Source: Victivallis sp. Marseille-Q1083
Lineage (GTDB): Bacteria > Verrucomicrobiota > Lentisphaeria > Victivallales > Victivallaceae
DNA: 64,000 nucleotides
Reading direction: 5' to 3'
Assembly (NCBI RefSeq): GCF_903645315.1
Contig: NZ_CAHJXL010000001.1
Coordinates: 1,230,001 to 1,294,000 of the forward strand
In this document: piece after piece, positions 30,867-59,700 of the stretch
How positions within the stretch are numbered: the stretch's first letter is position 1
How the letters are laid out: every line of letters starts with the position of its first letter
Notes under the pieces: generated by a model
Database searches by the model: none
What the model was told of the DNA's origin: nothing
The model's input: the letters and a program-made list of their open reading frames with translations, nothing else
Translations under genes and position numbers: made by a program

Positions 30867-30894
30867 TCCCGACGTTCTCCTCTAAAAAAGCATT

Positions 30895-31683: not shown

Positions 31684-31737
31684 CGTCTTCTCCTCCCCGC
31701 CAGCTTGGACAATTATCCCGATTCAGCAACTCTCCCC

Positions 31738-31774
31738 ACAACAGTAAAGTATCGCCGGAAGTATCTGTTGTCAA
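31738..31774 (-). promoter_or_regulatory. Promoter and inverted repeat ahead of budA
   Basis: Minus-strand TTGACA (31774-31769), 17-nt spacer, TACTTT (31751-31746). ACAACAG (31738-31744) and CTGTTGT (31765-31771) form an inverted repeat framing the promoter, a possible operator. The remaining gap to 31930 has no gene. Confidence 0.45.
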
Positions 31775-31930
31775 ACCAGGAAGCCGGATTGGCGGCTCAA
31801 CCGGCCGCCGCCGAGTGTTCCCTCCGGACGATCGGTCGCGCCAAATGAGGACCGGCCGGGCGGCGGCGGGGAAAACGTTCCCGGGGCGACTTCACGGAAA
31901 TTCTCCGGCGCTCCGGGAAGCCGTTCCGGA

Positions 31931-34027: not shown

Positions 34028-34132
34028 CGGAGGCTCCAGATTGTTTTCTTCGGTTGTAAAACGCTTGGGAAACGCCGCCGGACCTCGACTGAACCGGTTC
34101 AATTCCGGCCGGCGGCCCGCTTCACCCAGCAG

Positions 34133-35743: not shown

Positions 35744-35791
35744 TTTCAATTTCTTCCATCCTTACACTTGTCGCTAATATGATCGATTCGA

Positions 35792-40673: not shown

Positions 40674-41459
40674 TTACGGAATGTAGAAGAACTGCCCGAA
40701 GTACCAATCATTCTCGTTAGCCGCCGTCCACTTGCTGGTATCCGGGACCATATACATGCCCATTTTACCTTTATTCGGCTTGGCTCTTTCGACATGGCCA
40801 TCCACTCCGGAGAACAAGGCAGCCTGGCCACCATGATCACGCAGCATAGTCGCACTGGTGCCGTACAAAGATGAGCACCTCTCGCCCCAGGTACTTACGC
40901 CATCGGCTCCCATCGGAATGTAGCTTTCCATCATCATTACCGTTTGACTCGGTGACTCCGCCTTGGATAATTTACCTCCAATCCCCTTCATCCAGTCGCT
41001 AGTAATCAAACCACGGCCGTTCACAGCATAGTTGGTCTCACCGAATTCACTCAATCCCCAATCCAGCAAATGTTCGACATACCCTATCCCCGCCTTGTAA
41101 GTGCTGGATTCATCCGTAGCCATATAAGTGGTGTTGCTCGGACACTTGAAGAGATCATAGCCCATGCCATAGTCATTGATCAATGAATTCATCCAGTATC
41201 TGCTACCGTAAAACATGCCCCAGCCTTGTCCTTCGCCAGTCCCACTCCAACCGGCCTTTTCGATCGGAACATAATCATTTTCATCCGTCGAATAAAGGAT
41301 GACGCCAAGCGCCAACTGCTTCATGTTGTTGGTACATTTGATGATTTGCGCCGCCTGCTTGGCTTTGCCGAGGGCCGGCAGCAACATGCTGGCCAGAATT
41401 GCAATGATGGCGATGACCACGAGCAATTCAATCAACGTGAATTTTCTTGTCTGTTTCAT
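40674..41459 (-). CDS. Type II/IV pseudopilin (DUF1559-like, 261 aa)
   Basis: Start [20 protein letters not shown], prepilin cleavage expected before Phe7. The helix continues [45 protein letters not shown]. The globular domain has a Cys (FKCPSNTTY) and a C-terminal [17 protein letters not shown], the DGH motif. Its first 32 nt overlap the 3' end of the LacI paralogue 2 gene, so both are co-transcribed. AAGGAAGAG provides the ribosome site. It appears to be a second regulator-pseudopilin pair. Confidence 0.9.
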
Positions 41460-42919: not shown

Positions 42920-44026
42920 ATGGCACCCAACGACTGGACTGCATTCACCAGTGAAAACGGACGAACGGAACGATTTTTTACCGCCAATTCCGGCGGCGGC
43001 CGGAATTTCACCGCCGAAGCCGAAGCGTTGTGGGACGCCTATCGGCGTGCGGCGCCTTCAGCCAATGCCGTCTGGCTGCGGTTCCATCTGAGCGATCCCA
43101 CCAATCAAGTCCCGCTGCTGCGCCGGTTGCTGCCCGACGCCGCCACCGCCGTTTCCATGGTCGGCCAGGCGCCGGCCGACGGCAGCCGGATCGGCCTGGA
43201 AGCATATCATATCGACGGCGCCGAACCGGTCAGGGATGAAGATGACGCCACCCTGGTTGCCCTTCAAACCTACCGGCTGCTTTTCTTCAACCGCCATTTT
43301 CACGCCGAAAGCGGCAGCGCCGCCCAGACTGCCGCCGAATTTCATCACGCCGAGCAAATCCTGGCCCGCCACGGCGGTACGCTGGAGAACAATCTGCAGC
43401 GCACCTGGCTCTATTGCCGTGACATCGACAACAATTACGCCGGACTGGTCAGCGCCCGCCGCGAACTTTTCGAGCGGCACGGCTTGCGCGCCGACACTCA
43501 TTTCATCGCCAGCACCGGCATCGAAGGCAGCGCCGAGGCCCCTTCCCGGCTGGTCAGGATGGACTCTTTCGCCCTGTTCGGCCACCGGCCGGAACAGGTC
43601 GTCTACCTGGAAGCCCCGGACCATCTGTCGCCGACTCATATCTACGGCGTCACCTTCGAACGCGGCACCCGTCTGGTTTTCGGCGACCGGTCGCATTACT
43701 ATCTCTCCGGGACAGCCAGCATCGACCGCGACGGCCTGATCGTCCACGAAGGCAACGTCGCCAGCCAGGCCGGTCGGGCCATCGAAAATCTGGCCGCCCT
43801 GCTTGAGCACGGCGGCGCCGGACTCGGCGACCTCAAACAACTGCTCGTCTACCTGCGCGACCCGGCCGATCTGGCGGCGGTCGAAACGGTACTGGCCAAG
43901 GAACTGCCGGACGCCCTGCCGCGGCTGATCGTCCGCGGCGCCGTCTGCCGGCCCGGCTGGCTGGTCGAACTCGAAGGCATCGCCATCAACCGGCGCGGCG
44001 ATGAACGCTTCGCCGCCTTCCGGTAA
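42920..44026 (+). CDS. RidA/YjgF-superfamily protein, chorismatase-like (368 aa)
   Basis: Two-part protein. The N-terminal half (about 1-170) has no motif I recognise apart from resemblance to the FkbO/Hyg5/XanB2 chorismatase N-domain. The C-terminal half is a YjgF-like fold with HYYLSGTASIDRDGLIVHEGNVASQAGRAIENLAALLEHGGAGLGDLKQLLVYLRDP and LIVRGAVCRPGWLVELEGIA. The SGTAS and Q-AI motifs are like those of chorismate hydrolases. Soluble, cytoplasmic. GGAG is 6 nt before the ATG. It stands ahead of an IclR regulator that has its own promoter; a role in aromatic-acid or quinone chemistry is a guess. Confidence 0.68.
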   Translation: MAPNDWTAFTSENGRTERFFTANSGGGRNFTAEAEALWDAYRRAAPSANAVWLRFHLSDPTNQVPLLRRLLPDAATAVSMVGQAPADGSRIGLEAYHIDGAEPVRDEDDATLVALQTYRLLFFNRHFHAESGSAAQTAAEFHHAEQILARHGGTLENNLQRTWLYCRDIDNNYAGLVSARRELFERHGLRADTHFIASTGIEGSAEAPSRLVRMDSFALFGHRPEQVVYLEAPDHLSPTHIYGVTFERGTRLVFGDRSHYYLSGTASIDRDGLIVHEGNVASQAGRAIENLAALLEHGGAGLGDLKQLLVYLRDPADLAAVETVLAKELPDALPRLIVRGAVCRPGWLVELEGIAINRRGDERFAAFR

Positions 44027-44048
44027 TTTTTTCCGGAAAAATAGCGAA

Positions 44049-44082
44049 TACATTTGCATTCACTGTTTTTTAAATGTAAAAT
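44049..44082 (+). promoter_or_regulatory. Promoter with overlapping inverted repeat ahead of the IclR gene
   Basis: TTGCAT (44054-44059), 17-nt spacer, TAAAAT (44077-44082). TACATTT (44049-44055) and AAATGTA (44072-44078) form a 7-bp inverted repeat overlapping both boxes, a good place for self-repression by IclR. Confidence 0.6.
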
Positions 44083-44119
44083 ATCATTATAAAAATAAAA
44101 AACACGGATCTCAACAGCG

Positions 44120-44944
44120 ATGGAAGTCATATTGCAAAACGAAGGAAAAGCGAAAAAACGGGAGGCGACTTACGCCGTCCCGGCGGCCGAAGCACTGCTC
44201 GAACTGGTCGAATATTTGTCGAACCATCCGGAAGGCTGCGGCGTATCGGAACTGGCGCGGCGTCTGAACCTGTCGACCAACCTGACCTTCCGGATCATGA
44301 AATGTCTGCTGGAGCGCGGCTATGTCGAAGCGGACGAAAACGTCGTCTACCGCCTGAGCGCCCGCTGGCTGAGCCTGGGCGCGCTGGTGGCGAACAATTT
44401 CAGCCTGACCCGGCTGGCCCGTTCTTACCTGGAGGAACTGTGCCAGACGCTGGAATTCAGTTGCCTGCTGCAGACGCTGGAAAAGGACCACATGCTGGTC
44501 CGCGACGCGGTGGCGCCGTCCAAAGCCTTCTACCTGCAGGTCACTTCCGGCGTCCAGTTGGCCATCGGCGGCAACGCCTTCGCCAAGGCGGTGCTGGCTT
44601 ACAGCACGCCGGAGGTGCAGCGGGAAATCATCGCCGGGCTGACCTCCCGGCCGCAATTCTCGCCGGACGCCTTTCTGGCCGAACTGGAACAGGCGCGCCG
44701 CGAAAAGCTGGCTTATGACTGGGAAGAATATACCAAAGGGATTTTCTGTATCGCTTCTCCGGTATTTTCGACCGGCGATCTGGTGGTCGGCGCCATCGGT
44801 GCCACCGGTCTGGTATCCCACCTGTCGGCCGAAAAATGCCGGACGGTGGAAGCGCAGGTGCGCAATCAGGCGGCCAATCTGTCCCGGGCGATCGGCGGCA
44901 ATGGCGGCTTGACCGCCGGACGGCCAGGCCTGAATTATCGATAA
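44120..44944 (+). CDS. IclR-family transcriptional regulator (274 aa)
   Basis: The N-terminal winged helix is AAEALLELVEYLSNHPEGCGVSELARRLNLSTNLTFRIMKCLLERGYVEAD. It is followed by the IclR effector domain (GNAFAKAVLAYSTPEVQREI, EEYTKGIFCIASPVFSTGDLVVGAIGATG). The effector is probably a small organic acid as for the family. It opens a plus-strand series with gaps of 35 nt or negative to the cytochrome genes, so it is the likely local regulator of that system. Confidence 0.92.
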   Translation: MEVILQNEGKAKKREATYAVPAAEALLELVEYLSNHPEGCGVSELARRLNLSTNLTFRIMKCLLERGYVEADENVVYRLSARWLSLGALVANNFSLTRLARSYLEELCQTLEFSCLLQTLEKDHMLVRDAVAPSKAFYLQVTSGVQLAIGGNAFAKAVLAYSTPEVQREIIAGLTSRPQFSPDAFLAELEQARREKLAYDWEEYTKGIFCIASPVFSTGDLVVGAIGATGLVSHLSAEKCRTVEAQVRNQAANLSRAIGGNGGLTAGRPGLNYR

Positions 44945-44979
44945 GACAAATTCATTTTTATAACTACACAGGTGCAAAG

Positions 44980-47900
44980 ATGCGAAACGGATTGCTGACG
45001 CGAGGGATTCTCTGGCTGGGAACGCTGCTGTTTCCAGCGCTGCCGCCGCTCCAGGCGGCACACGATCTGGCCAAACAGCCGCTGACGGTGGCGGCCGACG
45101 ATGCCTTCAGTACCCTGCCGCTGCTGGTGGAAACGCAATTCACGCTGCCGCCGGCGGATTCCTATCAAATTATCGTCGCCAACCAGAACAAAGCCCAGCC
45201 GTGGCACTGGGAAATCTACACGACGCCGAGCGGTGAACTGGAAGTCTACCTGCCGGGTTTCCAGCCGGCGGTCATCGCCGCCGGCATCCCGGTCGCCGAC
45301 GGCCGGGAACACGCCGCCGCCATGCGGTTGACGGCGCAAGGAATCGTCCTCTCCGTCGATGGCCGGGAAGTCAAACGCCTTGACTGGCAAAGCACGCCCC
45401 AAGCCGCGCCGGCATCCGTCGAACCGCTGCAGATCGGCAAAGTCGAAGGCCTCGGCTGCGCCGGTTCGATCCGTTCGTTGCGGATCAGCAATCCGGTCGA
45501 CCAAACCGTCGTCGCCGCGTGGGACTTCGACCGCCAGCCAATCAACGGCGGTTATGCCGACCTCTCCGGCAACGGCCGGAACGCTTTGTCCGGCAGCGCG
45601 TCGGTCCCGGCCGGCAGCGGCGCCGATCTGGAGCAGGAGACTTTCCAGCTCGGTTTTTCGCCGGAGTACAACACCTTTCCGCTGACGGCGGACATGGTCA
45701 TGCAGTTGCGTTATGCCGATTCCTTCCGCATCCTCTGCGCCAACCAGTCCAAAGGCTCCCCGACCCACTGGGAAGTGTACACCAACAATGGTTTTCTGGA
45801 GGCTTACATGCCAGGTTTCTCGCCGGAAGTGCTCTACACGCCGGCCAAAATCGACGACGGCCAATGGCACCGCACCACCTTCATTCTCGAAGAAGACCGC
45901 GCCCGCTTGTTCGTCGACGGCATTCAGGTGGCCGATCAGGCGCTGCAGCGCAAAGATCCGGCCGCTTCGCCGACGCAGGAACCGCTCTATCTGGGCCGGA
46001 TCGTCGAAGCCTCCAACGCCTTTCCGGGCCGGGTCGACCAGTTCCGGCTGCTGCGGGGCGCCGTCACGCCGGACGGCCCGGCCAACGGCGGCCTGCCGGA
46101 CAGCGACGCCGCGTTCGCGGCCTGGGAATTCGACGATTCGGAGACCCGGGAATTTCCCAACCGCTGTCCGGATGGTCCGGCCGCCCAACGCAGTCTGGTG
46201 ATCGGCGAACTCAAGCCGGCCTACGTGCCGATGGCCGCCATCCCGGACACCGCGCCGCTGCGGCAGGAAGCGGCCGACTGGCTCCAGGCCAACCGGCTTT
46301 CCGCTGAACTGCTGCCGGAATTGAAGGCCCGGGATGAAGTCTGGAACTGGTGGGCCTTCCAATACCGCTACTACGGCCGGCTGGATTACGACGCCGAACG
46401 CTACATCGGCCACCTGCTGGAAGATCCTTCCTACCTCAAACGGATCAGCAGTCAGGTTTTCGATCCCAACGCCCTGATTCAACCGGACGACCGCGGCCCG
46501 GCCGGCACCGTCCTGCGCCAGACCCGTGCCCTGCTCGAACAACTGCGGCACGACAACCCGGACCGGACCGAACGGTATGACGCGCTGGACGCCAAACTCC
46601 GGCAACTGTCGGCGGCGCTGTCGGCGGCATCCACCGAAGAGGCCGCCGGCGCCGGCGCGTATTTCGCCGCCTGCGCCCTGCGGCGGGAAGCGGTTTACAG
46701 CAATCCGCTGCTGAACGAAAGGGCCGACCTGCTCGGCGTCAGCCGCGGATTATGGGAGGGCTCGGTCCGCGACGGCTTCACGTCCGACGATGTCGGCGGC
46801 CACTTCGTCAACCAGTATTTCGGCAGCAACGCCATCCCCGGCGGCGGCCTCTACCGGATCAAAAACTGGCAGAACGGCAACAAGCCGGTCATCGAAAATA
46901 TCCTGAAGGATTCCGTCGTCCGGAACGGCCGCTTCCAGGGCCGCAAACTGGATTTCGGCGCCTTCGCCACTCCGGACGTCTCCTGGGACGGCAAAAAAAT
47001 CGCGTTCGCCTGGACGCCGAACCAGTACCACGCCTTCAATATCTTCTCCTGGAATACCTGTTTCCATATTTTCACCGTCAATGCCGACGGCAGCGAACTC
47101 ACGCAACTGACCGACGGCGCCTACAACGATTTCGATCCGTGTTTCCTGCCCAACGGCCGGCTCGCCTTCGTATCCGAGCGGCGCGGCGGTTATATCCGCT
47201 GTTTCGGCGATTACATCCGCGTCCCCAATTACACGTTGTTCAGCATGAAGCAGGACGGCAGCGACATCGTGCCGATGAGCTATTTCGAAACCGCCGAATG
47301 GAATCCGACGATCAACAACGACGGCATGCTCGTCTATACCCGCTGGGATTACACCGACCGCGAAAACTGCATCGGCGGCCGCTTCTGGATCGCCAACCCG
47401 GACGGCACCAATCCGCGGGCGCCGCACGGCAACTATCCCTATCCGTGGTATTCCTGGGAAGGCAACGAGGAGGATTTCAAACAGCGTTTCCCCGATCTGC
47501 CTTACACCGGCTGGGGCAGCCGGGCCGGCGCGCCGCTGGTCGAAATGGGCATCCGGCAGATTCCCGGTTCAGACCGTTACATCTTCACCGCCTCGCCGCA
47601 TCACGGCCAGAACTTCGGTTCGCTGGCCATCCTCAACCTCAACGAACCGGATGACGGCAACCACAGCCAGATCAAACGCCTCACCCCGTACGAGCCTTAT
47701 CCCGAAACCGAAATAAGCGCCCGGCTGCATTACAAATTCGGCCAACCGTGGCCGTTGAGCGAAGATTTCTACCTGGCCAACTGCTGGGAAAATCTCGTCG
47801 TCGTCGACCGCTACGGCAACAATGAACTGCTCTGCGACCTCCGGGAAACCGAAGCCGCTCCGGATGACCGTTTCCGGCTGATCGAACCGATGCCGCTGGC

Positions 47901-49674
47901 CGCCCGGCCGCTGCCGCCGGTGATTCCGACCCACACCTACCAGGGTGAACGCCGGTCGCCGGACGCCCCCAAGGCGACCATCGCGGTGATGAACGTTTAC
48001 GATACCGACCAGCCGCTGCCGGAGAATACCAAAGTCAAATATCTGCGCGTCACCCAGAATGTCTTGAAAACCAATCATGCGATGGGAATTCCGATGATCG
48101 GCAACGAACAGGAAAATACGCCGCGGATTCCGCTGGGCATCGTTCCGGTCGAGGAGGACGGCAGTGTCTATTTCGAAGCGCCGGTGGCCAAGGAACTGAT
48201 CTTCCAACTGCTCGACGCAGAGCAGAAAGCGATCCATTCGATGCGGTCGACCGCCTTCGTCTTCCCCGGCGAACAGCTCTCCTGCCAGGGCTGCCATGAA
48301 CCGACCGGCACCGCGCCCAACACGATGGAAGTGCCGCTGGCGCTGCAGCGGCCGCCGTCAAAGCTGGTGCCGGAACTTACGCCGATCGAACCGATCAGTT
48401 TTTACCGTCAGGTCAAACCGCTGCTGGAAAAAGCCGGCATTTCCGAGCTGCAACAGTGGACCGATGCGGCCAACGGACTGGATTATTTCGCATTGCGGGA
48501 CTATAGTTTCTGGTTTTCCGGCGGCATGGCGACGTCGATGATCGGCGATTATCCCGGCATTCACGGCGGCTCCCGGACCATTCCCGGCCATTTCGGCGCC
48601 CGGCGGGCGAAATTGTCCGAATGGCTCGACCAGCCGGAAGCCAGGGCGAAATTGACCGACGCGGAACGCCGTATCGTCAACTTGTGGCTCGACAGCAATT
48701 CGCTGCGGCTGGGAGCATTCTTCCGAGAACAGGAACAACTGGAGGGAAAATTGATTCTGCCGATTCTCGATGTCGATCCCGACAACCTGCAGGGGACGGA
48801 AACGTCCGGCGCGCCGCTGCAGAAAAATTTCTGGCACGAAAACCATTACGGACCGTACCCGGTGCTGGTTTCCAGCCATACCCGCGATGCGGTGTTCATG
48901 CTGGATAAAAGCGGTCAAATCGTCTGGGAGTACCAAATTCCGCATCCGCAGGATGTCTGGATGCTGCCCAACGGCAACATTCTGATCGCCGCCCAGCACG
49001 CCGTCCGGGAAATCACCCGCGACAAGGAGCTGGTCTGGGAGTACAAAGTCGAAGCGCCGAATGAAATTCCGAGCGTTCAGCCGCTCGGGGACGGCAAAAC
49101 CCTGATCGGCATCGTCGGCCAATGTCGCCTGGTCGAAGTCGACCGCGGCAGAGAGCTGCACTCGATCCAACTGTCGACGACGGTTGCCGAACCGCACGCC
49201 CAGTTCCGGATGTGCCGGAAGACGCCGGAAGGCACTTACCTGGTGCCGTTCACCGCCGAAGGGGCGCTGCGCGAATACGATTCGGCCGGGCGGGTCATCC
49301 GGGAATTTCCGCCGCTGCCGATGCCGGTCTGCGCGGTCCGCCTTCCCAGCGGCAACACGCTGGTGACCGCCGACGGCCGGGTCGTCGAATATGACCGCAA
49401 CACCCGCATCGTCTGGGAAATCCGCCCGAAGTACGACACGCCGGACCTCAATCTGGCGGTACCGGCCGGCGTCCAGCGGCTGCCCAACGGCAACACCGTC
49501 GTCTGCAACTGGAACGCACAGGCGACGCCGGATAAACGCGCCGCCCACATCTTCGAGATCACCCCGGACAAGCGGGTGGTCTGGGAAGTGGAATCCGACC
49601 AATTCGGCCAGATCGCCCAGTGCCAGATCCTGACCGAAGATTACCAGCCGCGGCAGGATATCAACTGGCGATGA
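44980..49674 (+). CDS. Exported LamG-LamG-HzsA-like heme protein with C-terminal propeller (1564 aa)
   Basis: Signal peptide (MRNGLLTRGILWLGTLLFPALPPLQAAH). Two similar LamG/concanavalin-like domains (about 35-205 and 220-385) are visible as IIVANQNKAQPWHWEIYTT / ILCANQSKGSPTHWEVYTN. A helical linker leads into a TolB-like propeller resembling the hydrazine synthase alpha middle domain (ATPDVSWDGKKIAFAWTP, NADGSELTQLTDGAYNDFDPCFLPNGRLAFVSERRGGY). A single heme c site lies at Cys1102/Cys1105/His1106 (CQGCH). The C-terminal 300 residues repeat GQIVWEYQIP..DVWMLPNGNILIA-type blades. The function is unknown; true hydrazine synthase is unlikely here. It overlaps the next gene by 4 nt. Confidence 0.82.
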   Translation: MRNGLLTRGILWLGTLLFPALPPLQAAHDLAKQPLTVAADDAFSTLPLLVETQFTLPPADSYQIIVANQNKAQPWHWEIYTTPSGELEVYLPGFQPAVIAAGIPVADGREHAAAMRLTAQGIVLSVDGREVKRLDWQSTPQAAPASVEPLQIGKVEGLGCAGSIRSLRISNPVDQTVVAAWDFDRQPINGGYADLSGNGRNALSGSASVPAGSGADLEQETFQLGFSPEYNTFPLTADMVMQLRYADSFRILCANQSKGSPTHWEVYTNNGFLEAYMPGFSPEVLYTPAKIDDGQWHRTTFILEEDRARLFVDGIQVADQALQRKDPAASPTQEPLYLGRIVEASNAFPGRVDQFRLLRGAVTPDGPANGGLPDSDAAFAAWEFDDSETREFPNRCPDGPAAQRSLVIGELKPAYVPMAAIPDTAPLRQEAADWLQANRLSAELLPELKARDEVWNWWAFQYRYYGRLDYDAERYIGHLLEDPSYLKRISSQVFDPNALIQPDDRGPAGTVLRQTRALLEQLRHDNPDRTERYDALDAKLRQLSAALSAASTEEAAGAGAYFAACALRREAVYSNPLLNERADLLGVSRGLWEGSVRDGFTSDDVGGHFVNQYFGSNAIPGGGLYRIKNWQNGNKPVIENILKDSVVRNGRFQGRKLDFGAFATPDVSWDGKKIAFAWTPNQYHAFNIFSWNTCFHIFTVNADGSELTQLTDGAYNDFDPCFLPNGRLAFVSERRGGYIRCFGDYIRVPNYTLFSMKQDGSDIVPMSYFETAEWNPTINNDGMLVYTRWDYTDRENCIGGRFWIANPDGTNPRAPHGNYPYPWYSWEGNEEDFKQRFPDLPYTGWGSRAGAPLVEMGIRQIPGSDRYIFTASPHHGQNFGSLAILNLNEPDDGNHSQIKRLTPYEPYPETEISARLHYKFGQPWPLSEDFYLANCWENLVVVDRYGNNELLCDLRETEAAPDDRFRLIEPMPLAARPLPPVIPTHTYQGERRSPDAPKATIAVMNVYDTDQPLPENTKVKYLRVTQNVLKTNHAMGIPMIGNEQENTPRIPLGIVPVEEDGSVYFEAPVAKELIFQLLDAEQKAIHSMRSTAFVFPGEQLSCQGCHEPTGTAPNTMEVPLALQRPPSKLVPELTPIEPISFYRQVKPLLEKAGISELQQWTDAANGLDYFALRDYSFWFSGGMATSMIGDYPGIHGGSRTIPGHFGARRAKLSEWLDQPEARAKLTDAERRIVNLWLDSNSLRLGAFFREQEQLEGKLILPILDVDPDNLQGTETSGAPLQKNFWHENHYGPYPVLVSSHTRDAVFMLDKSGQIVWEYQIPHPQDVWMLPNGNILIAAQHAVREITRDKELVWEYKVEAPNEIPSVQPLGDGKTLIGIVGQCRLVEVDRGRELHSIQLSTTVAEPHAQFRMCRKTPEGTYLVPFTAEGALREYDSAGRVIREFPPLPMPVCAVRLPSGNTLVTADGRVVEYDRNTRIVWEIRPKYDTPDLNLAVPAGVQRLPNGNTVVCNWNAQATPDKRAAHIFEITPDKRVVWEVESDQFGQIAQCQILTEDYQPRQDINWR

Positions 49675-51506
49675 AAATGCGCGGTTCATTTCTGCCGGCC
49701 GTGCTGCTGTTCGCCGCCTGGTGCTCGATGGCCGATTATCCGGCCCCCAACGCGCTGACGGCGGCGCCGGACGGCCTCTGGGTCGCCGAAGAGCATACCG
49801 CCTTGCTGCGCCGCCTCGATCCGGAGACCCTGGAACCGGCCGGAGCCGCCATCGAACTGGAACAACCGCCAACCGGTCTGGTTTCCTCCGCCGGCAGGCT
49901 CTACGTCACCGCCGGTTTGACGACCGGCGAACTGCTGGAAGTCGATCCGGAGCGCCGGCAAATTCTCCGCCGGCTCGCCATCGGCCATTCCCCGCAGTCG
50001 CCGGCTATCTCGGCGGACGGTCGGACGCTTTATTTTGCCAACCGTTTCAGCGGCCAGGTCGGCGCGGTCGATTTGAAAGAATTTTCCTTGCGCTGGCGGA
50101 GCCCGGCCGGCCGGGAACCGGTCGCCGTCGTGCCGGATGCCGCCAATCGAAAGGTTTACGCCGCCAACCATCTGCCGATCGGGCCGGCCAACGGTACCAC
50201 CCACCAGGCGGCCGTCTTCGTGCTCGACGCGGCGGACGGTGCCGTCCTCAAACACATTCCGCTGGCCAACGGCGCCCAGGGCATTCGCGGCGCCGCGCTC
50301 AGTCCGGACGGCGCCTGGCTGATCGTCACCCACGTGGTCAGCCACTACAAGCTGCCGACCACCCAAATCGACCGCGGCTGGATCAACACCAACGCCATCA
50401 GCCTGATCCGGACCGGCGACGACAGGCGGCTTGCCACCGTGCTGCTCGACGACGTCAACCGCGGCGCCGCCAATCCGTGGGCAGCCGTCTTTTCCGCCGA
50501 CGGCGCGCAACTGCTGGTGTCGGCTGCCGGCAGCCATGAGCTGTTCCTGATCGATTTTCCGGGCCTGCTGGCCAAGCTGGCCGCAACTCCGGCCGAAAAT
50601 CAGTTGAGTTACCTGAACAAACTGCGTACCCGGCTGCCGCTGCCGGTCAACGGCCCGCGCGCCCTGACGATCGCCGGCAACCGGGCGTTCGTCGCCGGTT
50701 ACTACTCCGACAATATCGCGCTCATTTCCCTCGGCGGCCGGCCGCGGGTTCTCGCCAGCCGGGAGCTGCCCGGCGCCGACGCCGGCGATCCCCGCCGGCT
50801 GGGGGAAAAGTATTTCAACGATGCCCGGCTCTGCCGGGAAAACTGGCAGAGTTGCGCCAGTTGCCATCCGGACGCCCGGGTCGACGCCCTCAACTGGGAC
50901 ATGCTCAACGACGGCATCGGCAATCCGAAAAATACCAAAACGATGTTCCTCTCCCACCGGACGCCGCCAGTGATGTCGCTCGGCATCCGCCCGGACGCCG
51001 AAACGGCGGTGCGCGCCGGATTCCGCCACATCGAATTCAATGAACCGGTCGAAGAATATTGTCAGGCGATCGATCTATACCTGGCGCAAATGCCGCCGGT
51101 GCCGAGTCCGTTCCTGAACAGCGAGGAAATCACCGGCATCGCGTCCGACGATCCGGGTTGCCTGCAGTGCCACACGCCGGACCGGGGCGCGTTGAGCGCC
51201 GCCGCCCAACGCGGCAAAGCGATCTTCGCCGGCAAAGGCGGCTGTATCGCCTGCCATCCCCATCCGCTGTTCACCGATCTCGAATTGTACGACGTCGGCA
51301 CCACCACCGGCAGCGATATCGGCCGGCCGGTGCGGACGCCCAGCCTGGTTGAAGTCTGGCGGACCGCTCCCTATCTGCACGACGGGCGAGCCGCCACACT
51401 GGAGGAAGCCGTCACCAAATACAACCCGGGCGACCGCCGCGGCACGACTTCCGGCCTGACTCCGGAAGAGGTGCGCGACCTGGTCTCCTACCTGGAGTCA
51501 CTGTAA
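49671..51506 (+). CDS. Beta-propeller cytochrome c, CCP/MauG-like C-terminus, three heme sites (611 aa)
   Basis: Signal peptide (MKMRGSFLPAVLLFAAWCSMADY), then a YVTN/NHL-like propeller of about 350 residues (PQSPAISADGRTLYFANRFSGQV and similar blades). The C-terminal cytochrome part has CASCH (Cys395-His399), CLQCH (497-501) and CIACH (525-529). It ends in APYLHDGRAATLEEAVTKYNPG, a sequence typical of di-heme peroxidase/MauG relatives. Periplasmic electron transfer or oxidation is implied; the substrate is unknown. Translation is coupled to the HzsA-like gene (ATGA overlap), so the two proteins probably work as partners. Confidence 0.87.
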   Translation: MKMRGSFLPAVLLFAAWCSMADYPAPNALTAAPDGLWVAEEHTALLRRLDPETLEPAGAAIELEQPPTGLVSSAGRLYVTAGLTTGELLEVDPERRQILRRLAIGHSPQSPAISADGRTLYFANRFSGQVGAVDLKEFSLRWRSPAGREPVAVVPDAANRKVYAANHLPIGPANGTTHQAAVFVLDAADGAVLKHIPLANGAQGIRGAALSPDGAWLIVTHVVSHYKLPTTQIDRGWINTNAISLIRTGDDRRLATVLLDDVNRGAANPWAAVFSADGAQLLVSAAGSHELFLIDFPGLLAKLAATPAENQLSYLNKLRTRLPLPVNGPRALTIAGNRAFVAGYYSDNIALISLGGRPRVLASRELPGADAGDPRRLGEKYFNDARLCRENWQSCASCHPDARVDALNWDMLNDGIGNPKNTKTMFLSHRTPPVMSLGIRPDAETAVRAGFRHIEFNEPVEEYCQAIDLYLAQMPPVPSPFLNSEEITGIASDDPGCLQCHTPDRGALSAAAQRGKAIFAGKGGCIACHPHPLFTDLELYDVGTTTGSDIGRPVRTPSLVEVWRTAPYLHDGRAATLEEAVTKYNPGDRRGTTSGLTPEEVRDLVSYLESL

Positions 51507-51508
51507 AG

Positions 51509-52357
51509 ATGATCCGCCGTTTGCAATGGGCCATCGTTTCCATTTCGGCATTGCTGCTGCTGCTCATCGCCGCGGCATTCCCCTGGCGCGGCGTCCCGGA
51601 ACTCTACCGTTCCGGCGTCTTCCTGCTCGTCGCCGCCATTACCGCCTTGTCGGCGGCGGCCATCTGGTGGCGGCCGGCCTTCCGTCATCGCGGCGGCGTC
51701 CTGCTGTTGCACCTGGCAATAGCACTGATCGCCGTCGGCGCGTTGATCGGCGTTTTCTTCGGCCGCCAGGTTCGTTTTTTCATGCTGGCGGAAGCGGATG
51801 CTCCGCTGGCCGACTTCCTGCCGCCGGAAAACGGCCGACCCGCCATTCCGCTGCCCTTCTCTTTCGGCGCCGGGCGGCCGGAAGTGGATTATTACGATCC
51901 GGATTACCTCCTTTACCGGCGGCACCCGGACGATCCCAACCGCATGGCGCTGGCCGGGCGGCCGCATTGGCGCGGTGAAACGCTGTATCTGGACAACCGG
52001 CAAAACTGGCCGCGGACGACGCTGCTGGCGCCGGACGGCAGCTTTCTGCCGCATCTGAACGTCGGCGAGGACGGTATCCTGATGCGCCAGGACCCGCAGC
52101 CGAGCGAATACCGGGTGGCGATCCGTTACCATCATCCGGCCGCGCCGGAAGAGCGGCAAGCCGTCCTGAAAGTCAATGAACCGGTCACCATCGACCGCTG
52201 GCGGTTCTATCTGATGAGCTGCGGCACCTCCGCCCGCGGCCGTTATGTCGAGTTGCTGGCCAGACAGGATCCCGGCCGGCTCGTCGTCGCCGCCGGCCTG
52301 TGGCTGCTGCTGGCGGCTCCCTTCTGGCTTCTCGTCGACCAATGGAGAAAACAATGA
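51509..52357 (+). CDS. ResB/Ccs1-like cytochrome c biogenesis protein, short form (282 aa)
   Basis: Membrane protein with helices near 6-26, 33-53, 62-85 and 257-275, around a periplasmic domain (about 90-255). The end KVNEPVTIDRWRFYLMSCGTSARGRYVELLARQDPGRLVVAAGLWLLLAAPFWLL matches the ResB C-terminal signature. It is shorter than typical ResB (400 aa or more). With CcsA it forms the System II heme lyase that attaches heme to CxxCH. It starts 2 nt after the cytochrome gene and overlaps ccsA by 4 nt. Confidence 0.8.
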   Translation: MIRRLQWAIVSISALLLLLIAAAFPWRGVPELYRSGVFLLVAAITALSAAAIWWRPAFRHRGGVLLLHLAIALIAVGALIGVFFGRQVRFFMLAEADAPLADFLPPENGRPAIPLPFSFGAGRPEVDYYDPDYLLYRRHPDDPNRMALAGRPHWRGETLYLDNRQNWPRTTLLAPDGSFLPHLNVGEDGILMRQDPQPSEYRVAIRYHHPAAPEERQAVLKVNEPVTIDRWRFYLMSCGTSARGRYVELLARQDPGRLVVAAGLWLLLAAPFWLLVDQWRKQ

Positions 52358-53112
52358 TGATCATCTGGTATTTGAAATTGCTTGCGGCCGGCGCGTTGAC
52401 TGCTTTTCTGCTGGCCGCGGCACTGCAATGCCAGCAACGGCTCCGGGCGGCGCGGTATTGCTTCGGCGGCGGTTTTTGCTGCTGCCTGGCGCTGTTCCTC
52501 TGGCAATGGCTCCGGCTCGGCGAACCGCCATTCGGCAATATGTTCCAGGTGTTGAGCTTCCTGCCACTGGTATTGCCGCCGCTCTACGTCCTGGAGTACC
52601 GCCACGGCGACCGGCTGCTGCTGCTGCCCTTTGCGCTGGTCGGCGCAATCGCGCTCACCGGCGTGTTGTTCATGGACCCGGACCTCTCCTGGCGACGGGC
52701 GCCGGCCCTGCAATCGCTCTGGTTCGTTCCGCATGTCGCTAGTTATATCCTCTCCTACGCGCTGGCTGCCGTCGCGGCAATGGTCACCTTGACCGCCTTC
52801 CGCCGCCGGGAGCGCGCTTCGGCCGCCGAACGTCTCAGCCGGCTGGCCTTCGCGTTCATGACCTTCGGACTGGTTTCCGGCGCGTTGTGGGCAGAAGCGG
52901 CCTGGGGCAGCTACTGGAGCTGGGATATCAAGGAAAGCTGGTCGCTGATCACCTGGCTGCTTTACGCCACCTATTTCCATCTCCGAAAGCAGCCGGGCGG
53001 CCGGCGGGCGGCCAACTGGTGCAACCTGATCGCTTTCGCCGCGCTGCTGGTAACGTTTTTAGTCGTCAACCTGCTGCCGAAAATCGATTCGCTGCACAGC
53101 TACGCGCAATAG
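52354..53112 (+). CDS. ccsA: Cytochrome c assembly protein CcsA (252 aa)
   Basis: Polytopic heme-handling protein of cytochrome c System II, with about eight hydrophobic segments. The tryptophan-rich heme motif is [26 protein letters not shown] (WWD domain), flanked by conserved His residues ([12 protein letters not shown] and the C-terminal LHSY). The start is the ATG that overlaps the ResB stop. Together with the ResB-like protein it should mature the hemes of the two upstream exported proteins. Confidence 0.9.
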
Positions 53113-53122
53113 GGAAACGCTC

Positions 53123-53782
53123 ATGAAACAAAAATTTACCCTGCTGGAACTGTTGACGGTCATCGCCGTCATCGCCATCCTTGCCGCCATGCTGCTGCCG
53201 GCGCTGTCGAAAGCCAAACGGGTTGCGCTGACCCAGCATTGCATCAACAATTTGAAACAAATCGGTCTGGCGCTTGAATTGTACGCCGCCGACCACGACG
53301 ACCGGATTCCCAATATCAACGGCGAATATATGGGCAGCAGCATCAACCTGATCCGCATGTACGGCGGCCTGCCGTTCGGTTTGGGAAAATTACTCCCCGA
53401 CTACGGACTCTCGCCATTGCAATTGGGCTGCCTGCAACACGATCCGATGACGCCGGAAGCGGTCAAACAGGGCTGGGACGGCAGCGGCGCCGTTTTAAGC
53501 GCCTATCTCTACCGGGAAACGCAGGCCGGTTTCCACGGCCGCAAGCATGCCGACGGAAACGCCGGGAAAGCGCTGGTCATGGACTTCTCATTCCGGTCCG
53601 CAGCCTTGAGCCATTCCGCCCACGGTTTCCAATCGACCAATCTGCTCTACAACGACGGCCATGCCGTCACCCGGCACAACACCGCCACGCCATTCGAACG
53701 TTATACCGCCAGCGGCGACAGCGGAGCGATGACGCCGCCGGACTGCACTCTGCTCTGGGAACGGGCCGATCAGGAGCCCTGA
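53123..53782 (+). CDS. Type II/IV pseudopilin (DUF1559-like, 219 aa)
   Basis: Start [20 protein letters not shown], cleavage before Phe5, then [45 protein letters not shown]. The C-terminal part has [14 protein letters not shown], the DGH motif shared with other pseudopilins here. It follows ccsA by 10 nt and so belongs to the cytochrome operon, repeating the regulator...pseudopilin layout of the sugar modules. No terminator is obvious after it. The 240-nt gap to 54022 holds only the terminator of the opposite-strand operon. Confidence 0.9.
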
Positions 53783-53980: not shown

Positions 53981-54005
53981 GGCCGGACGGGAAATCCGTC
54001 CGGCC
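53981..54005 (-). terminator. Strong intrinsic terminator of the pilus/secretin operon
   Basis: GGCCGGACGG (53981-53990) and CCGTCCGGCC (53996-54005) form a perfect 10-bp stem with a 5-nt loop, followed on the minus strand by TTTTTGTATG. It lies 18 nt past the last secretin gene. Confidence 0.85.
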
Positions 54006-54022: not shown

Positions 54023-56767
54023 TCACTGATAAGTCGGGAACGATGGGATACTGGTCTGGACCTGATCGTCCGGGAAATAGGCCGAGCCATCCGGATTGAC
54101 CAGCTTGCAGGTCAGGAAGATCAGCAAATTGGTCTTCTTGCCGGAAGAACCTTTCGACTGGAAGAAGCGTCCGATCAACGGCACATCGCCCAGGATCGGA
54201 ATCTTGTCATCGATCGTCGTAACTTCATCTTTGATGATACCGCCGAGCGCAACCGTCTCGCCGTCCTTGATCGAAATCAGCGTATCGATCAACCGCTCCG
54301 CCACGACCGGCTCCCGCAACAGATTGAGGACCGGGAAATTATCATCTCCGGACTCTTCGTAGTCGAAAGTCGTCCAACCGACGAAAGTACGCACCGTCGG
54401 TTTGACCCGCAGCGTGATCAACTTGCGGGCGATATCCACTTCCGGCGTCACCAGCATCTGAATACCGAACTGCTCCGCCTCATCGAAGACCGGCACCGGA
54501 CTGATGTAGGTGTAAGTATTCATCGAATTGTTGTTGTTATCGTTGGTATTGCTGTCGCTGGTACTGAACGACGCCTCGTCATACTCGTCCGGGAAATACA
54601 TTTCTTTGACCATCCGGATCAGCGCGGGCTGACCATTCAGCGTCAGGATGCGCGGTGAAAAGAGCATGTCCTCCGAATTCAACTGATTCAAAGCCCGGAC
54701 CGAGAAAGAAAAATCAAATCCGTTGACGCTGCGGTTATAGGTGAAGATATCGTCGCTTTCCGGATCGAGACTGTTCAGCGTATTGTCATTCTCATCGAAT
54801 TCCAATTTGCCGTCCCGATTGCCGACCGTATTATAACCAATCAGTTCTCCTTCTTCATCATAGATCGGAGTCGTGGATACCGGATTGTTGGCAATCGCAT
54901 AATTGAAGCCGAGCTCCTGCAAATCGTTCTGCGTCACTTCGACAAATTTCGCCTGAATTTCCACCATCGGTTCCTTGATCGACAGATCGGTTTGAATGAT
55001 CCGGTCGATCTTCTGCAGGTTCTCCCGGGTGTTGGTGACAATCAAGCGGCTGATGCGCTGGTCGAAAACAATACGGGACCCCAGCGGGAAGGTTACGCCG
55101 TAACCTTTGAAAAATTCCGCCAGCACCGGGCCGACTTCACCGTCGCCGTAGGAAATCAACACTTCACGGTTCAGCGGGAAGATCTGCGTTTCCATCTCAT
55201 CGAGGGCATAGTCCTCGGAGGCGATTACCACCGAATATTTCTCCACCCGGTATTTCAAGTTCAACGTCTGGCACAGCACTTTGATCGCTTCGCCGAGGCT
55301 CTTGTCATTCAAGACGAAATTGACCGACGGATATTCCGGTTCTTCCGGTTCGACCGCCATCGGGTTATAGGCATACGAATCGTAATTCGCCGCATCCCCA
55401 TAGCCGCCCTGGCCCATCGTCCCCATGCCTCCCTGCATACCGGGGCCATAGCCGCCCGGGCCCATCGCACCCATGCCTCCTTGCATGCCGGGACCATAGC
55501 CGCCCGGGCCCATCGCGCCCATGCCCGGCTGCATGCCGGGATTCATGCCGCCCGGATTCATGCCCGGCATACCGGGAGTATAACCGCCAGGGCCGCTCGG
55601 ACTCATGCCCGGCTGCATACCGGGATTCATGCCCGGCGGATATTGGCCCATCCCCGGCCGCATCATGCCGCCCGGGCCCATCATCATGCCGTTCTGATTG
55701 GCGTCCTGCGCCGCCTTCGCCATTTTTTCCATCTGCTGGCGCAAATGATGTTTCTGCAAATCGAACATCAGGAAAATATTGATGCCCTTGCCTTCCGGGT
55801 CATTTTCCTTGCTCAATTCGACGATATACCGGATGGCGGCCGGCAATTTCAAATCTTCGCAATTGACTTCCGGAATGATGATGTTGTCCAGCTTCTGCTG
55901 GAGCGTCATCTCGCCGTCGGGCGTTTTGAAAATCGGCGCTTCGATCAACGTTCCACCGTCGAAATTGGTCAACGAATCCAACGGCGTCACCCCGTTCCAG
56001 GTCGCTTCCGCAATCATCTCTTTGTGAACGATGCCATAACGCCGGTCGGCAGCTTTGGCCAGCAGCAAATTGCAGGCGCCCAAACCGGTCGTCGCTTCCG
56101 TATTGTAGACGTCGATCCGCAGTACCCGCTCATAAGCATCGCGGGCCCGGGCATATTCTTTTGCCTGAAAAAGTTTATTGGCCCGCGCCAACTCAATGCC
56201 GATGGTGTATTCACGATTTTCCTTGTCCGGAATCAAATCGGCTTCTTTCACCTCGGTGCGCCGGGCAACGGCCGCTTTCTCTTTTTCATACTGAGCGATC
56301 TTCGCATCCATCTTGGCTTTGCTGGCCGGGTAAACCTCGGCCGCCTTTTTGCACAGCTCGATGGCTTTGTCGTAATCTTCCGCCAATGACAGCTCTTCCG
56401 CCTGGTCGGCGATATTCTCAGACATATAGAAATAAGACTGGGCAATCTGATCGCGGCAATCACTCAATTTCTTTTTGAAAAGAGTGGAACCGCCGTCGCT
56501 GAGCTCCCGCAAGATTTTCACCGCCTCAAGATACTGGTCAATCGCCGCCTGGTAATCTCCCTTGCGAAACGCCTCATGACCAGCACGCATGAAGCTGTCG
56601 GCGTTGGCCGCCAGCTCCTCCTTGTCGATGACCGTCGTACTGATCTGCCGATTGATGTCCTCGACGACATCCTCCTGCGCCTGCGCTCCCGTCGGCGCAA
56701 ACAATGCCGCACAACAACAAGAAAGTACAGACACTTTCAAATAATTGTTATCTATTCTAAATACCAT
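54023..56767 (-). CDS. Secretin-family outer-membrane protein with TPR N-terminus (914 aa)
   Basis: Signal peptide (VSVLSCCCAALFAPTGAQAQ), a TPR-like helical region (about 50-250), then an N-domain. A Met/Gly/Pro-rich segment (about 360-458, unit GPGGYGPGMQGGMGAM) is followed by secretin N-domains (SVNFVLNDKSLGEAIKVLCQTLNLKY, SRLIVTNTRENLQKIDRII). The C-terminal secretin pore domain has VEIQAKFVEVTQNDLQELGFNY, SVRALNQLNSEDMLFSPRILTLNGQ, KDGETVALGGIIKDE and ILGDVPLIGRFF. Forms an outer-membrane channel for pilus or secreted protein. It is the last gene of the operon, 24 nt after another secretin; related to the Amuc_1098 type. Confidence 0.9.
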   Translation of the reverse strand: MVFRIDNNYLKVSVLSCCCAALFAPTGAQAQEDVVEDINRQISTTVIDKEELAANADSFMRAGHEAFRKGDYQAAIDQYLEAVKILRELSDGGSTLFKKKLSDCRDQIAQSYFYMSENIADQAEELSLAEDYDKAIELCKKAAEVYPASKAKMDAKIAQYEKEKAAVARRTEVKEADLIPDKENREYTIGIELARANKLFQAKEYARARDAYERVLRIDVYNTEATTGLGACNLLLAKAADRRYGIVHKEMIAEATWNGVTPLDSLTNFDGGTLIEAPIFKTPDGEMTLQQKLDNIIIPEVNCEDLKLPAAIRYIVELSKENDPEGKGINIFLMFDLQKHHLRQQMEKMAKAAQDANQNGMMMGPGGMMRPGMGQYPPGMNPGMQPGMSPSGPGGYTPGMPGMNPGGMNPGMQPGMGAMGPGGYGPGMQGGMGAMGPGGYGPGMQGGMGTMGQGGYGDAANYDSYAYNPMAVEPEEPEYPSVNFVLNDKSLGEAIKVLCQTLNLKYRVEKYSVVIASEDYALDEMETQIFPLNREVLISYGDGEVGPVLAEFFKGYGVTFPLGSRIVFDQRISRLIVTNTRENLQKIDRIIQTDLSIKEPMVEIQAKFVEVTQNDLQELGFNYAIANNPVSTTPIYDEEGELIGYNTVGNRDGKLEFDENDNTLNSLDPESDDIFTYNRSVNGFDFSFSVRALNQLNSEDMLFSPRILTLNGQPALIRMVKEMYFPDEYDEASFSTSDSNTNDNNNNSMNTYTYISPVPVFDEAEQFGIQMLVTPEVDIARKLITLRVKPTVRTFVGWTTFDYEESGDDNFPVLNLLREPVVAERLIDTLISIKDGETVALGGIIKDEVTTIDDKIPILGDVPLIGRFFQSKGSSGKKTNLLIFLTCKLVNPDGSAYFPDDQVQTSIPSFPTYQ
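55400..55543. repeat. 48-bp tandem repeat, three copies, inside the secretin gene
   Basis: Units begin at 55400, 55448 and 55496, each encoding a 16-residue GPGGYGPGMQGGMGAM-like motif; the third has diverged. The periodicity is in frame, so copy number can change without breaking the protein. Confidence 0.8.
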
Positions 56768-56791: not shown

Positions 56792-59700
56792 TTAACGATA
56801 TAAATCCGGCAATCCGGGTTGAATGTTACGACGAATCGGCATGCCTTCGGCATTGATCAAGCGAGCCGTAACGAACACCAGCAGATTCCGCCGTTCCGTC
56901 ATCGTCATCTGGCTGCTGAAGAAGCGGCCGAAGAAAGGCACATCGCCCAGAACCGGCCAGCGGTCATCGCGCGCCATATTCCGGTCATCGATCATACCGC
57001 CGAGTACAATGGTTTCCCCATCATAGACACGGACGTTGGTTTCCAGATCGCGAATCGTAAATTCCGGCATCCACAAATTGAATTGCTTCTTATAATACGG
57101 AATCGCCTGGCTCCGCCAATCCGTAACCACCGTGCCACCATTGGAAACGCCCAGATAACCGGCTTCCATCGTCACCAGGTAATTGGAATTGTCGTGACCG
57201 ACATAGGCGATGACGCTCGGACGCAGGTAAAGAGAAATCGTATAATTGTCCGGATTGACGACCGCTTTCACATAGAACTTGATACCGGTATCCTGTGACT
57301 CAAGATCCGGCACCGGCTCGGTGATCACGATCGTCGAATCATCCACATCCAGCTCCGGCGTATCCCAGTCGATCGGGAAATACTGCGACTCCACCAGTTC
57401 GATTGCGCCGACATCCCCGCTGGTCACCACCAGTTTCGGGGAGGACAGCACCTCCGCCCGTGAATTCTGGGCGATCGCATTGACCGACAACGACAAATTC
57501 ACATTGGAATCGTTGCCAAACAGCGATTCACCGAAGTTCGGGAATATTTTCAAATTATTGATCACTCTATAACTGGATGGAGAAGAACCGGAGGCGTTGG
57601 CGCCATCTCCTTTGCTGTAATGCCGCAACGGATTGTTCGGATTGCTGATATCCCAGGTCGAATCCGGATTTAAGTTCGTATCGCTCGCATACAGACTCCA
57701 ATCGAATCCCAGCTCATTCAAGTCCGTCATCGTCAATTCCACCAGCTTCGCTTCAATCTGAATCATCGGAATGTCGATGGCATCCAACTGCTGGAGCAGA
57801 TCTTCCAGTTTATTCAGGTTTTCAATCGTATTGGTCACGACGATCTTGTTGGACGGACGGCTGTAATTGATGGATGCGCCCAGCGGGAAATCGACGCCGC
57901 GGGCCGTAAAGTACATCGCCAACCGCGCCGGCGTCGCCTCACGGCGCCAGACATTGTCGCCACCCAGCGTATAGCTCGTATCGCTGCTGTTGGAATTGTT
58001 GCTCGAACCGCTGGAACCGCGGCTGCTGCCGCTCGAACCACGGCTGGAACCGCGGCTGGAACCGCCGCCGCGGCTGCTGCCTGAACCACTGCTCGAACCA
58101 CGGCTCGAACCACTGCCGCGGCTGCTGCCTGAACCACTGCTCGAACCACTGCCGCTATTATTATCGCGGTCGCTCGCCCCCCAGGATTCACCGGTCGTTC
58201 CCAGAATATGCGCCGCACCGACACCGATGATACCGCCGCGAATGTAATCGCCGCCCACCGCGGAGTCATTATCGCCATTGTTGGAACCGCTCCGGTTCCC
58301 GCCGCCGCCGCCAGTACCGCCGCCGGTGCCGTCTCCCATCTGCGCCTGAGGCTCCAATCCCACCTGGAAGGACATACCCGGCATCGTCGAATTGATGCCA
58401 TTGTCAGTCCCGCCGCCGCCGGCACCGCCGCGTCCGCTGCCGCCAGTCACCCCGCCGCCGACGCCCCCCAAACCGCCGCCCTGCTGCCCGCCGGGCCCGC
58501 CGGTTCCACCGGTTCCCGGCATTCCGGGCATCCCAGTCATGCCGCCCTGCTGGCCGCCGGCACCGGTCATGCCTGGCATGCCGCCCATGCCCGGACCGGT
58601 CATTCCCTGTCTGCCGCCCTGCATGCCCATGGCGCCCATACTGCCGGGACCTCCCATCGCATTGTTCTGCTGCATCTGAGGATATTTTTGGGGATCGTAA
58701 CCATAAATCCAGCCGTATTGACCGAGCGCCTTCCCGCGCCCGCTCTCATACGGCGTATCATATTCGGCAATGTCGTTGATGATCGACGCCCGGATCGGGA
58801 ACGATACCGTCTTCATCTCGCTGACATTGGAACCGATCAACACCGAATTATCGGTAATCTGATATTTTAAGCCGGTCTGCTTGCACAGATAACGAATCAC
58901 TTCCAAGAGCGGCATATCCGTCGCCGAAAATGTAAACGGCTTCAAATCCGCCGCTTCTTCACCGGAAATCGCCGAAACGACGTTGACGCCCTTGCCATCC
59001 GGGGAATAACGCGCACTGTTCCGGTCCAGGGACCGGATGACATCGATCGGATTTTCCTCTTCGAAGTCGATATCCTTGAATACGATATCTTCCAGGCGTT
59101 TCCGCATTCCGGAATCGTTCTCTTCTTTTTCCATCGCCCGGCCGAGGACATTTTTCTGCTCCGAAGGTGTGTTCTCCGGGGTAATCCATTCCCAGGCATT
59201 GTAAGCCAATTGGCCGTAAATGTTGGCAGTCTGCCGTTCTTTGGCGCGTTGATACAGCGTATCGGCATTGCGCTTGGCCATCTCGATTGCCGGCTCATAC
59301 AACGGGTTGATGATGAAGATTTCCTCCAGCTTTGCCCGCACTTCCTCATAACGTCCGCCCTTGAACAGGATCTGGGCTTCGCGGAACAAAAGATCCACCT
59401 TCTCCCGCTCGTCCTGCAACGTCGGCGCCGCTTCCTCCAGGGAAGTCATCTTTTCCTTTTCCAACGCCAGAATTCTCCGGCGGGCCATATCCACCACTGC
59501 GGCAACCTCGTCCTTGACGCGCGGATCGATCAGTTCCGCTTCATTGGCAGTATTGATCGCATCGGTGAACTTTTCGTCGGCCATCTGCTTGCGGGCGTCG
59601 GCCAGCACGGCATTGGCATGCTGCCCGATCACCTCACTGCGCCGCTTGTTCACTTCGGCCAGACGGCGTTCCGCCGCCAGTCCCTTCAAACCGGAAAGTT

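Follow-up and report, generated by a model that had tools for sequence, protein, structure and literature searches.

Homologs of the hydrazine synthase subunits beside cytochrome maturation genes in Victivallis: a possible carbohydrate-linked heme oxidoreductase

What kind of enzyme is built on the fold of hydrazine synthase (HZS) when the residues needed for hydrazine synthesis are missing? This question is raised by a gene run in Victivallis sp. Marseille-Q1083, located in a 64,000-nt stretch of contig NZ_CAHJXL010000001.1 (positions 1,230,001 to 1,294,000; hereafter the window, whose own numbering is used throughout). The run occupies 42920-53782 of the plus strand and consists of seven open reading frames (ORFs), in the order P0007, P0006, P0001, P0002, P0003, P0004, and P0005 (Table 1). 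From P0001 to P0005, the ORFs are separated by a 4-nt overlap, a 2-nt gap, a 4-nt overlap, and a 10-nt gap, and the IclR gene P0006 ends 35 nt upstream of P0001. A previous interpretation made from the letters of the window (the sequence-only reading) had described five overlapping or nearly touching genes downstream of an IclR regulator. ORF coordinates and Pfam and NCBIfam matches agreed with this description, except that a further gene upstream, the RidA/chorismatase-like gene at 42920, is the first of the run. Homology, domain architecture, gene linkage, the missing HZS residues, and a rewiring of the hemes were established by computation. We propose that 42920-53112 encodes an exported heme oxidoreductase with the build of HZS, a proposal that, taken as a whole, we regard as evenly balanced between acceptance and doubt.

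Results

Homology with hydrazine synthase

P0002 is a fused HzsB-HzsC homolog. It matched the profile NF052342 (3.9e-29) and the structures 5c2v_B (9.2e-24) and 5c2v_C (6.6e-18), and 5c2v_B was also the top Foldseek match of the P0002 model (6.4e-22). The VIA-align list for P0002 contained the propeller only and no HzsC; the HzsC part is supported by sequence. P0002 also matched CCP_MauG (7.3e-10) and TTQ_mauG (7.8e-20), the match to HZS beta-gamma being stronger than that to TTQ_mauG. The sequence-only reading had called P0002 a 611-residue three-heme propeller/MauG-like cytochrome. The hemes and the CCP_MauG match were found as described, but the protein is not merely MauG-like, and the correspondence of P0001 to HzsA and of P0002 to HzsB and HzsC had been missed.

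A signal-like stretch read by eye at the N-terminus of P0001 suggests that this protein is exported. The hidden Markov model (HMM) search returned Laminin_G_3 twice and HZS_alpha, in agreement with the earlier description of a 1564-residue protein with two LamG domains, an HzsA-like part, and one CQGCH, which is the single CxxCH of P0001. The C-terminal propeller is encoded in some relatives by a separate gene beside the beta-gamma gene.

When the pair was compared with HzsABC of Kuenenia (PDB 5C2V), the HzsA fold (propeller, middle domain, and heme domain) with its heme alpha-I motif was found in P0001, and the HzsB propeller and the HzsC di-heme domain with the heme gamma-I and gamma-II motifs were found in P0002. 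The fusion of beta and gamma resembles that of Scalindua, in which HzsBC is fused (PMC12758564; this paper, PMC12607021, PMC10732223, PMC11266412, and PMC7170507 are cited from excerpts). In contrast with HZS, the window pair lacks alpha Tyr591, gamma Cys165, and the motif of the bis-His heme alpha-II. It has a third heme and a His-to-Arg change in gamma, and its alpha protein bears a LamG pair and a C-terminal propeller; the alpha gene comes first, and a chorismatase-like gene accompanies the pair. In HZS, Tyr591 ligates the alpha-I heme, whereas the CxxCH His of this heme is a zinc ligand (PMC12607021). In the 30 aligned alpha proteins, the 8 residues that follow the alpha-I motif never include a Tyr. 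In 111 beta-gamma proteins, the position corresponding to gamma Cys165 was never Cys (Gln in 85, Leu in 24, and Glu in 2; the position is alignment-derived). Scores of 101.3 and 22.1 bits were obtained against NCBIfam equivalog cut-offs of 1250 and 800 bits, respectively. On the missing residues (Tyr591 and Cys165) and the low scores, hydrazine synthesis was rejected as an explanation, and the earlier remark that hydrazine chemistry is not implied was supported.

Heme motifs and kinship

Alignment A2 contained 30 alpha proteins, namely P0001 and 29 relatives. The alpha-II CxxCH was kept in all 29 relatives and was lost in P0001. Among the full-length relatives of P0001 (six were judged; L129 was excluded as an antisense frame), the alpha-I motif was found in 6/6, and the alpha-II motif was found in 3/6 and lost or altered in 3/6. 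Because alpha-II is kept in only half of these full-length relatives and is lost in P0001, this heme is dispensable. The conservation of the CxxCH motifs among orthologs, on which the sequence-only reading had made its interpretation depend, was supported for the heme motifs in general, whereas the loss of alpha-II from P0001 had been overlooked.

The CxxCH motifs of P0002 start at residues 395, 497, and 525. Around the first of these (gamma-I), residues C388, W392, the CxxCH itself, R403, NWD, ND, and GNPK were invariant or nearly so in the 111 sequences. Cys388 (50832-50834), which precedes the gamma-I motif by seven residues, and Trp392 were identical in 111/111, and the HzsC alignment has no Cys at that place. 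The second motif is an insertion found in seven of the 111 proteins: P0002 and six Akkermansiaceae-type rows. In all seven, the His of HGxTS is replaced by Arg (it is His in 101/104 others), and a His stands two residues after the gamma-II motif (7/7 vs. 1/104). According to the HzsC alignment, the bis-His heme gamma-II probably has this lost HGxTS His as its distal ligand.

The nearest relatives found for P0002 were from Akkermansia. The tree grouped P0002 with the Akkermansiaceae-type rows (SH-aLRT 99), apart from four rows labeled Lentisphaerota; it was an unrooted tree made by a quick method, with no anammox sequences, and the P0002 row had a long end branch (1.13). This placement is suggestive, though no proof, of transfer. 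P0007 showed the same kinship (phmmer, 6e-105 to 4e-109 for L040-L042 and 9e-21 for the next best contig locus). P0001 did not: in the contig loci its nearest relatives were other alpha proteins (L101, L070, and L054), and full-length relatives at 51-53% were found in G159, G234, and G251. The history of the alpha part thus appears to differ from that of beta-gamma and P0007.

Co-occurrence and gene linkage

The phylum survey comprised 387 genomes, with different thresholds for the two profiles (E ≤ 1e-20 for beta-gamma and E ≤ 1e-6 for HZS_alpha). Beta-gamma was detected in 78 genomes and HZS_alpha in 73. Both were present in 67, 11 had beta-gamma only, and six had alpha only (listings compared by hand; Fisher p 7e-56, uncorrected for kinship). 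Among the 78 beta-gamma genomes, four matched over the C-terminal part only (G075, G221, G307, and G321) and five matched in longer frames of 857-997 aa (G143, G179, G295, G372, and G376); both groups may represent other clades.

In the genome_contigs scan, the best 80 of 337 stretches encoding relatives were from Akkermansia, Hydrogenedentota, Planctomycetota, Pontiellaceae, Bacteroidota, Armatimonadota, KSB1, and others, and named Akkermansia records also contained a beta-gamma homolog. When L008 and L009 were added to these 80 loci, an alpha gene was found within 1.5 kb of beta-gamma on the same strand in 50/82. Alpha and beta-gamma distances were correlated (Mantel r 0.34, 0/999 permutations). 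A stricter ORF filter kept 72/80 loci, with the alpha gene in 45 and a RidA-like gene in 20 of them. The coupling of alpha and beta-gamma was therefore recovered across genomes, as the sequence-only reading would have it, but its five genes do not form a fixed system: ResB-CcsA adjoins beta-gamma in only 2/80 loci (L080 and L118), plus L146/G124 and the window, and the pilin-like gene did not recur as a partner.

The sequence-only reading had also overlooked P0007, a recurrent partner. This ORF matched TIGR04444 (9.3e-15) and Ribonuc_L-PSP (7.6e-14), and it aligned both to RidA and to the chorismatase structure 5ag3 (1.1e-6; XanB2 is presumably the name of structures 5ag3 and 5a3k). It thus resembles both RidA and the chorismatases FkbO, Hyg5, and XanB2, but its chorismatase family score (54.7 bits) is below the cut-off (325 bits). 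A C-terminal Cys-Arg pair and a Glu (E350) were nearly invariant in the 20 sequences of alignment A4. This Glu lies in the stretch aligned to VEIEG of 5ag3 and might correspond to Glu-334, the catalytic acidic residue of Hyg5 (PMC7170507). No obvious signal peptide was seen by eye in P0007. A P0007-like gene was located within 1 kb of beta-gamma in 41/78 genomes (strand not considered) and within 10 kb in 46/78, and within 1 kb in 28/80 contig loci.

Heme supply

Both core proteins of system II cytochrome c maturation, ResB and CcsA, are present in the run, as had been noted earlier (ResB 4.5e-10; CcsB 1.3e-43, with 149.5 bits under a cut-off of 187.6), but here, unlike in system II elsewhere, they are embedded among HZS-like genes. 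Apart from P0004, the window genome gave no CcsB-type match, and CcsB was detected in 6/61 relatives and in 2/37 genomes of the same family. In G037, ResB-CcsA stands beside a chorismatase-like gene, away from beta-gamma. The window genome (G000, 99.7% complete) gave no match to ALAD (HemB, porphobilinogen synthase), to cytochrome bd, or to CCP_MauG other than P0002; ALAD was matched in 6/37 same-family genomes. A de novo heme pathway was considered for the window genome and rejected: ALAD was not matched, and all eight AhbD-profile matches were below cut-off (best 108 of 500 bits). If the lack of a detectable HemB is correct, the organism would depend on outside heme for the P0001/P0002 enzyme. 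Heme-synthesis genes were found in the runs of other lineages: AhbAB over the cut-offs in L060, L160, and L159, AhbC over the cut-off in L160 and just under it in L060, AhbD-like proteins under the cut-off in L060 and L160, and a CysG/HemA-like fusion in L159.

Carbohydrate-type domains and neighbors

The carbohydrate-type domains differ from one alpha protein to another: LamG in P0001, F5/8 C in L064, FGE in L040, and, by eye, PA14-like and FGE-like domains in G037. In four of five Bacteroidota loci (L058, L061, L068, and L102), the pair was accompanied by genes for Fe-ADH, DeoC, and a XylB-like kinase (HMM names from L068), and in L058 and L068 also by the RidA-like gene. L064 has LarA-like and sugar-acid hydrolase genes and, by eye, a transporter gene. 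An IclR-like gene also precedes the alpha gene in L053 and L111. The carbohydrate link drawn by the sequence-only reading is plausible on the evidence of these domains and of the sugar-catabolism neighbors of some relatives.

Other features of the window

The same reading had counted P0005 as a pseudopilin belonging to the system, which was not upheld. Its matches were weak (N_methyl 0.034; DUF1559 0.0007), and its type of N-terminal signature recurs in at least two further ORFs of the window; P0005 is probably an ordinary neighbor of the run. Prepilin-type ORFs were observed at 26306-27067 and 40677-41459 (minus strand), the second with a DUF1559 match, and pilin-like genes are thus common in the window. 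Downstream, two large minus-strand genes (54023-56767 and 56792-59947) encode proteins that, by eye, resemble secretin-type/pilus-assembly outer-membrane proteins and contain Gly/Met/Pro- or Gly/Ser-rich low-complexity stretches. Upstream, an amidohydrolase gene, an alpha-acetolactate decarboxylase gene, and a melibiase-like gene are found at 29640-35749 (minus strand), and two LacI-type regulators lie between 39367 and 42549.

Table 1 Features of the gene run and its immediate surroundings
Feature	Position	Strand	Evidence or remark
P0007, RidA/chorismatase (FkbO/Hyg5/XanB2)-like, 368 aa	42920..44026	+	TIGR04444, Ribonuc_L-PSP, 5ag3
P0006, IclR-type regulator, 274 aa	44120..44944	+	IclR_C 3.2e-25
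P0001, HzsA-like alpha protein, 1564 aa	44980..49674	+	HZS_alpha, Laminin_G_3
Two LamG-like domains of P0001, approximate bounds	45067..46269	+	Laminin_G_3 6.3e-17, two stretches
HZS_alpha middle domain of P0001	48031..48300	+	PF18582 9.5e-18
Heme alpha-I motif CQGCH, P0001 residues 1102-1106	48283-48297	+	motif in 30/30 aligned alpha proteins
Site of lost heme alpha-II motif, no CxxCH	48436..48450	+	alignment A2
C-terminal propeller of P0001, like 3no2	48865..49620	+	
P0002, fused HzsB-HzsC-like beta-gamma protein, 611 aa	49671..51506	+	NF052342, 5c2v_B/5c2v_C
Heme gamma-I motif CASCH	50853..50867	+	near-invariant block
Inserted third heme motif CLQCH	51159..51173	+	Akkermansia-type clade
Heme gamma-II motif CIACH, then PHP	51243..51257	+	
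P0003, ResB-like, 282 aa	51509..52357	+	system II cytochrome c maturation; ResB 4.5e-10
P0004, CcsA/CcsB-like heme handling protein, 252 aa	52354..53112	+	TIGR03144 1.3e-43
P0005, pilin-like ORF, 219 aa	53123..53782	+	N_methyl, DUF1559 weak matches
Terminator-like palindrome, 10 pairs, 9 GC	53981..54005	reported on -	between run and convergent gene

Discussion

The carbohydrate-type domains of alpha, the sugar-catabolism neighbors, and the IclR-like genes favor, with moderate confidence, a carbohydrate-linked heme redox enzyme that would be periplasmic or on the cell surface. From the data described, we infer complex formation, an electron path, and a carbohydrate substrate. The alpha subunit P0001 would contribute the LamG pair, the HzsA propeller, the HZS_alpha domain with heme alpha-I, and the extra propeller, and the beta-gamma subunit P0002 would contribute the HzsB propeller, the HzsC di-heme domain, and the added third heme. 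ResB-CcsA would attach heme, and a chorismatase/RidA-like enzyme would accompany the two subunits. The LamG domains may anchor the complex on a glycan; a first redox step would take place at the MauG-like gamma-I heme, electrons would pass via gamma-II and the added third heme, and a second step would take place at the alpha-I heme. The products would then enter carbohydrate catabolism under IclR control.

Because HZS-like pairs have already been described (PMC12758564; PMC10732223), the kind of system is known. Hagglund et al. 2025 (PMC12758564) likewise judged other such pairs not to be hydrazine synthase, and PMC10732223, on hzsABC-like genes of Phycisphaerae UBA1845, put forward a wide HZS-like family acting on other substrates. 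The window pair resembles clades I-IV and UBA1845 in having co-located alpha and fused beta-gamma homologs without key HZS residues, and alpha before beta-gamma is the gene order of the non-anammox clades I-III (PMC12758564). Clade I differs from the window pair in possessing the Cys165 site and an additional 4-8 N-terminal hemes. Clade III resembles it in its single additional beta-gamma motif and its lack of alpha-II, but has FG-GAP and transporter neighbors. The main text of PMC12758564 contains no mention of Akkermansia, Lentisphaer, or RidA, and its Discussion, as excerpted, refers to few alpha homologs. Searches of the open-access literature returned no paper that deals with such a system in either Akkermansia or Lentisphaerota.

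Four other explanations were weighed. If the gamma-I heme acted in the manner of a bacterial cytochrome c peroxidase, with all other parts as scaffold, the enzyme would consume peroxide or nitric oxide for protection or as an electron sink. The gamma half is indeed related to CCP/MauG, with two CxxCH motifs and a related C-terminal block, and alpha is immediately preceded by a catalase gene in the same direction in G257, an Akkermansia-type genome (L147:13651-15102). However, this adjacency was seen in one locus, and the conserved heme motif of alpha, its carbohydrate-type domains, and the sugar-catabolism neighbors would be left unexplained. Unlike MauG/CCP, the gamma half is fused to an HzsB-type propeller. 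The inter-heme position aligned to gamma His144, which is Trp in CCP/MauG (PMC12758564), was Ser or Ile in 72/111 and Trp in 7/111, leaving 104/111 without Trp (alignment-dependent); it is Ser in P0002, where the alignment is uncertain. We consider this explanation rather unlikely. A MauG-like maturase that docks by its propellers and oxidizes either a partner protein or a residue bound to a polymer would fit the TTQ_mauG match, the several propellers, and the near-invariant gamma block. It is quite improbable, given the stronger match to HZS beta-gamma and recurrent neighbors that include no methylamine-dehydrogenase-like partner.

The linkage with ResB-CcsA could also be due to chance, these being general maturation genes that serve other cytochromes, and their adjacency in so few loci is consistent with this. 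Against it are the uniqueness of the CcsB match in P0004, the rarity of CcsB in the family, and the finding of no cytochrome bd match and of no CCP_MauG match besides P0002 (other c-type cytochromes were searched non-exhaustively), and we hold chance linkage to be unlikely. A true hydrazine synthase or other N-N bond forming enzyme would account for the counterparts of all three subunits and for the three retained HZS heme motifs. It is extremely improbable in view of the lack of Tyr after the alpha-I motif (30/30) and of Cys at the Cys165 position, of the low scores, and of a gene order like that of the non-anammox clades I-III.

Several observations weigh against the carbohydrate-linked oxidoreductase itself. 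The hemes could be purely electron carriers. In G159, G234, and G251, the full-length relative of P0001 and the beta-gamma gene are on separate contigs, and in G234 and G251 a different alpha gene adjoins beta-gamma; a P0001-type alpha therefore need not pair with beta-gamma. RidA-like genes are also present where beta-gamma is absent: they were found in 138/387 genomes, including 70 of the 78 with beta-gamma. The sugar-catabolism neighbors belong mainly to one Bacteroidota clade plus L064 (approximately 5/80 loci), and no substrate pathway recurred widely among the 80 loci. Pfam analysis of 77 other neighbor ORFs (from 113, after exclusion of L143 duplicates and of short, doubtful, or already annotated ORFs) revealed no dominant family, at most 4/77 sharing one. 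The gamma half of the P0002 model has weak stretches (404-431 and 488-499). Finally, an HMM set could not confirm the UBA1845 hzsABC-like genes (PMC11266412).

A wider picture may be sketched tentatively, although we find it more doubtful than persuasive: exported, glycan-directed, two-site heme enzymes would be widespread and catalyze a novel redox reaction on a carbohydrate-derived substrate, and HZS would be a specialized offshoot. Akkermansia and the window organism would share a rewired three-heme version, the latter running on surrounding heme without a detectable HemB. The origin of HZS is still an open question, on which homologs in 73 (alpha) and 78 (beta-gamma) of 387 genomes bear. 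The loss of one motif from alpha, the gain of one in gamma, and a likely ligand swap constitute a natural test of which hemes are needed. A cytochrome c enzyme with its maturation genes and without a detectable HemB would, if true, clearly exemplify reliance on external heme. Akkermansia muciniphila, a gut bacterium, has been cultured, and the role of the HZS fold outside anammox is thus directly testable.
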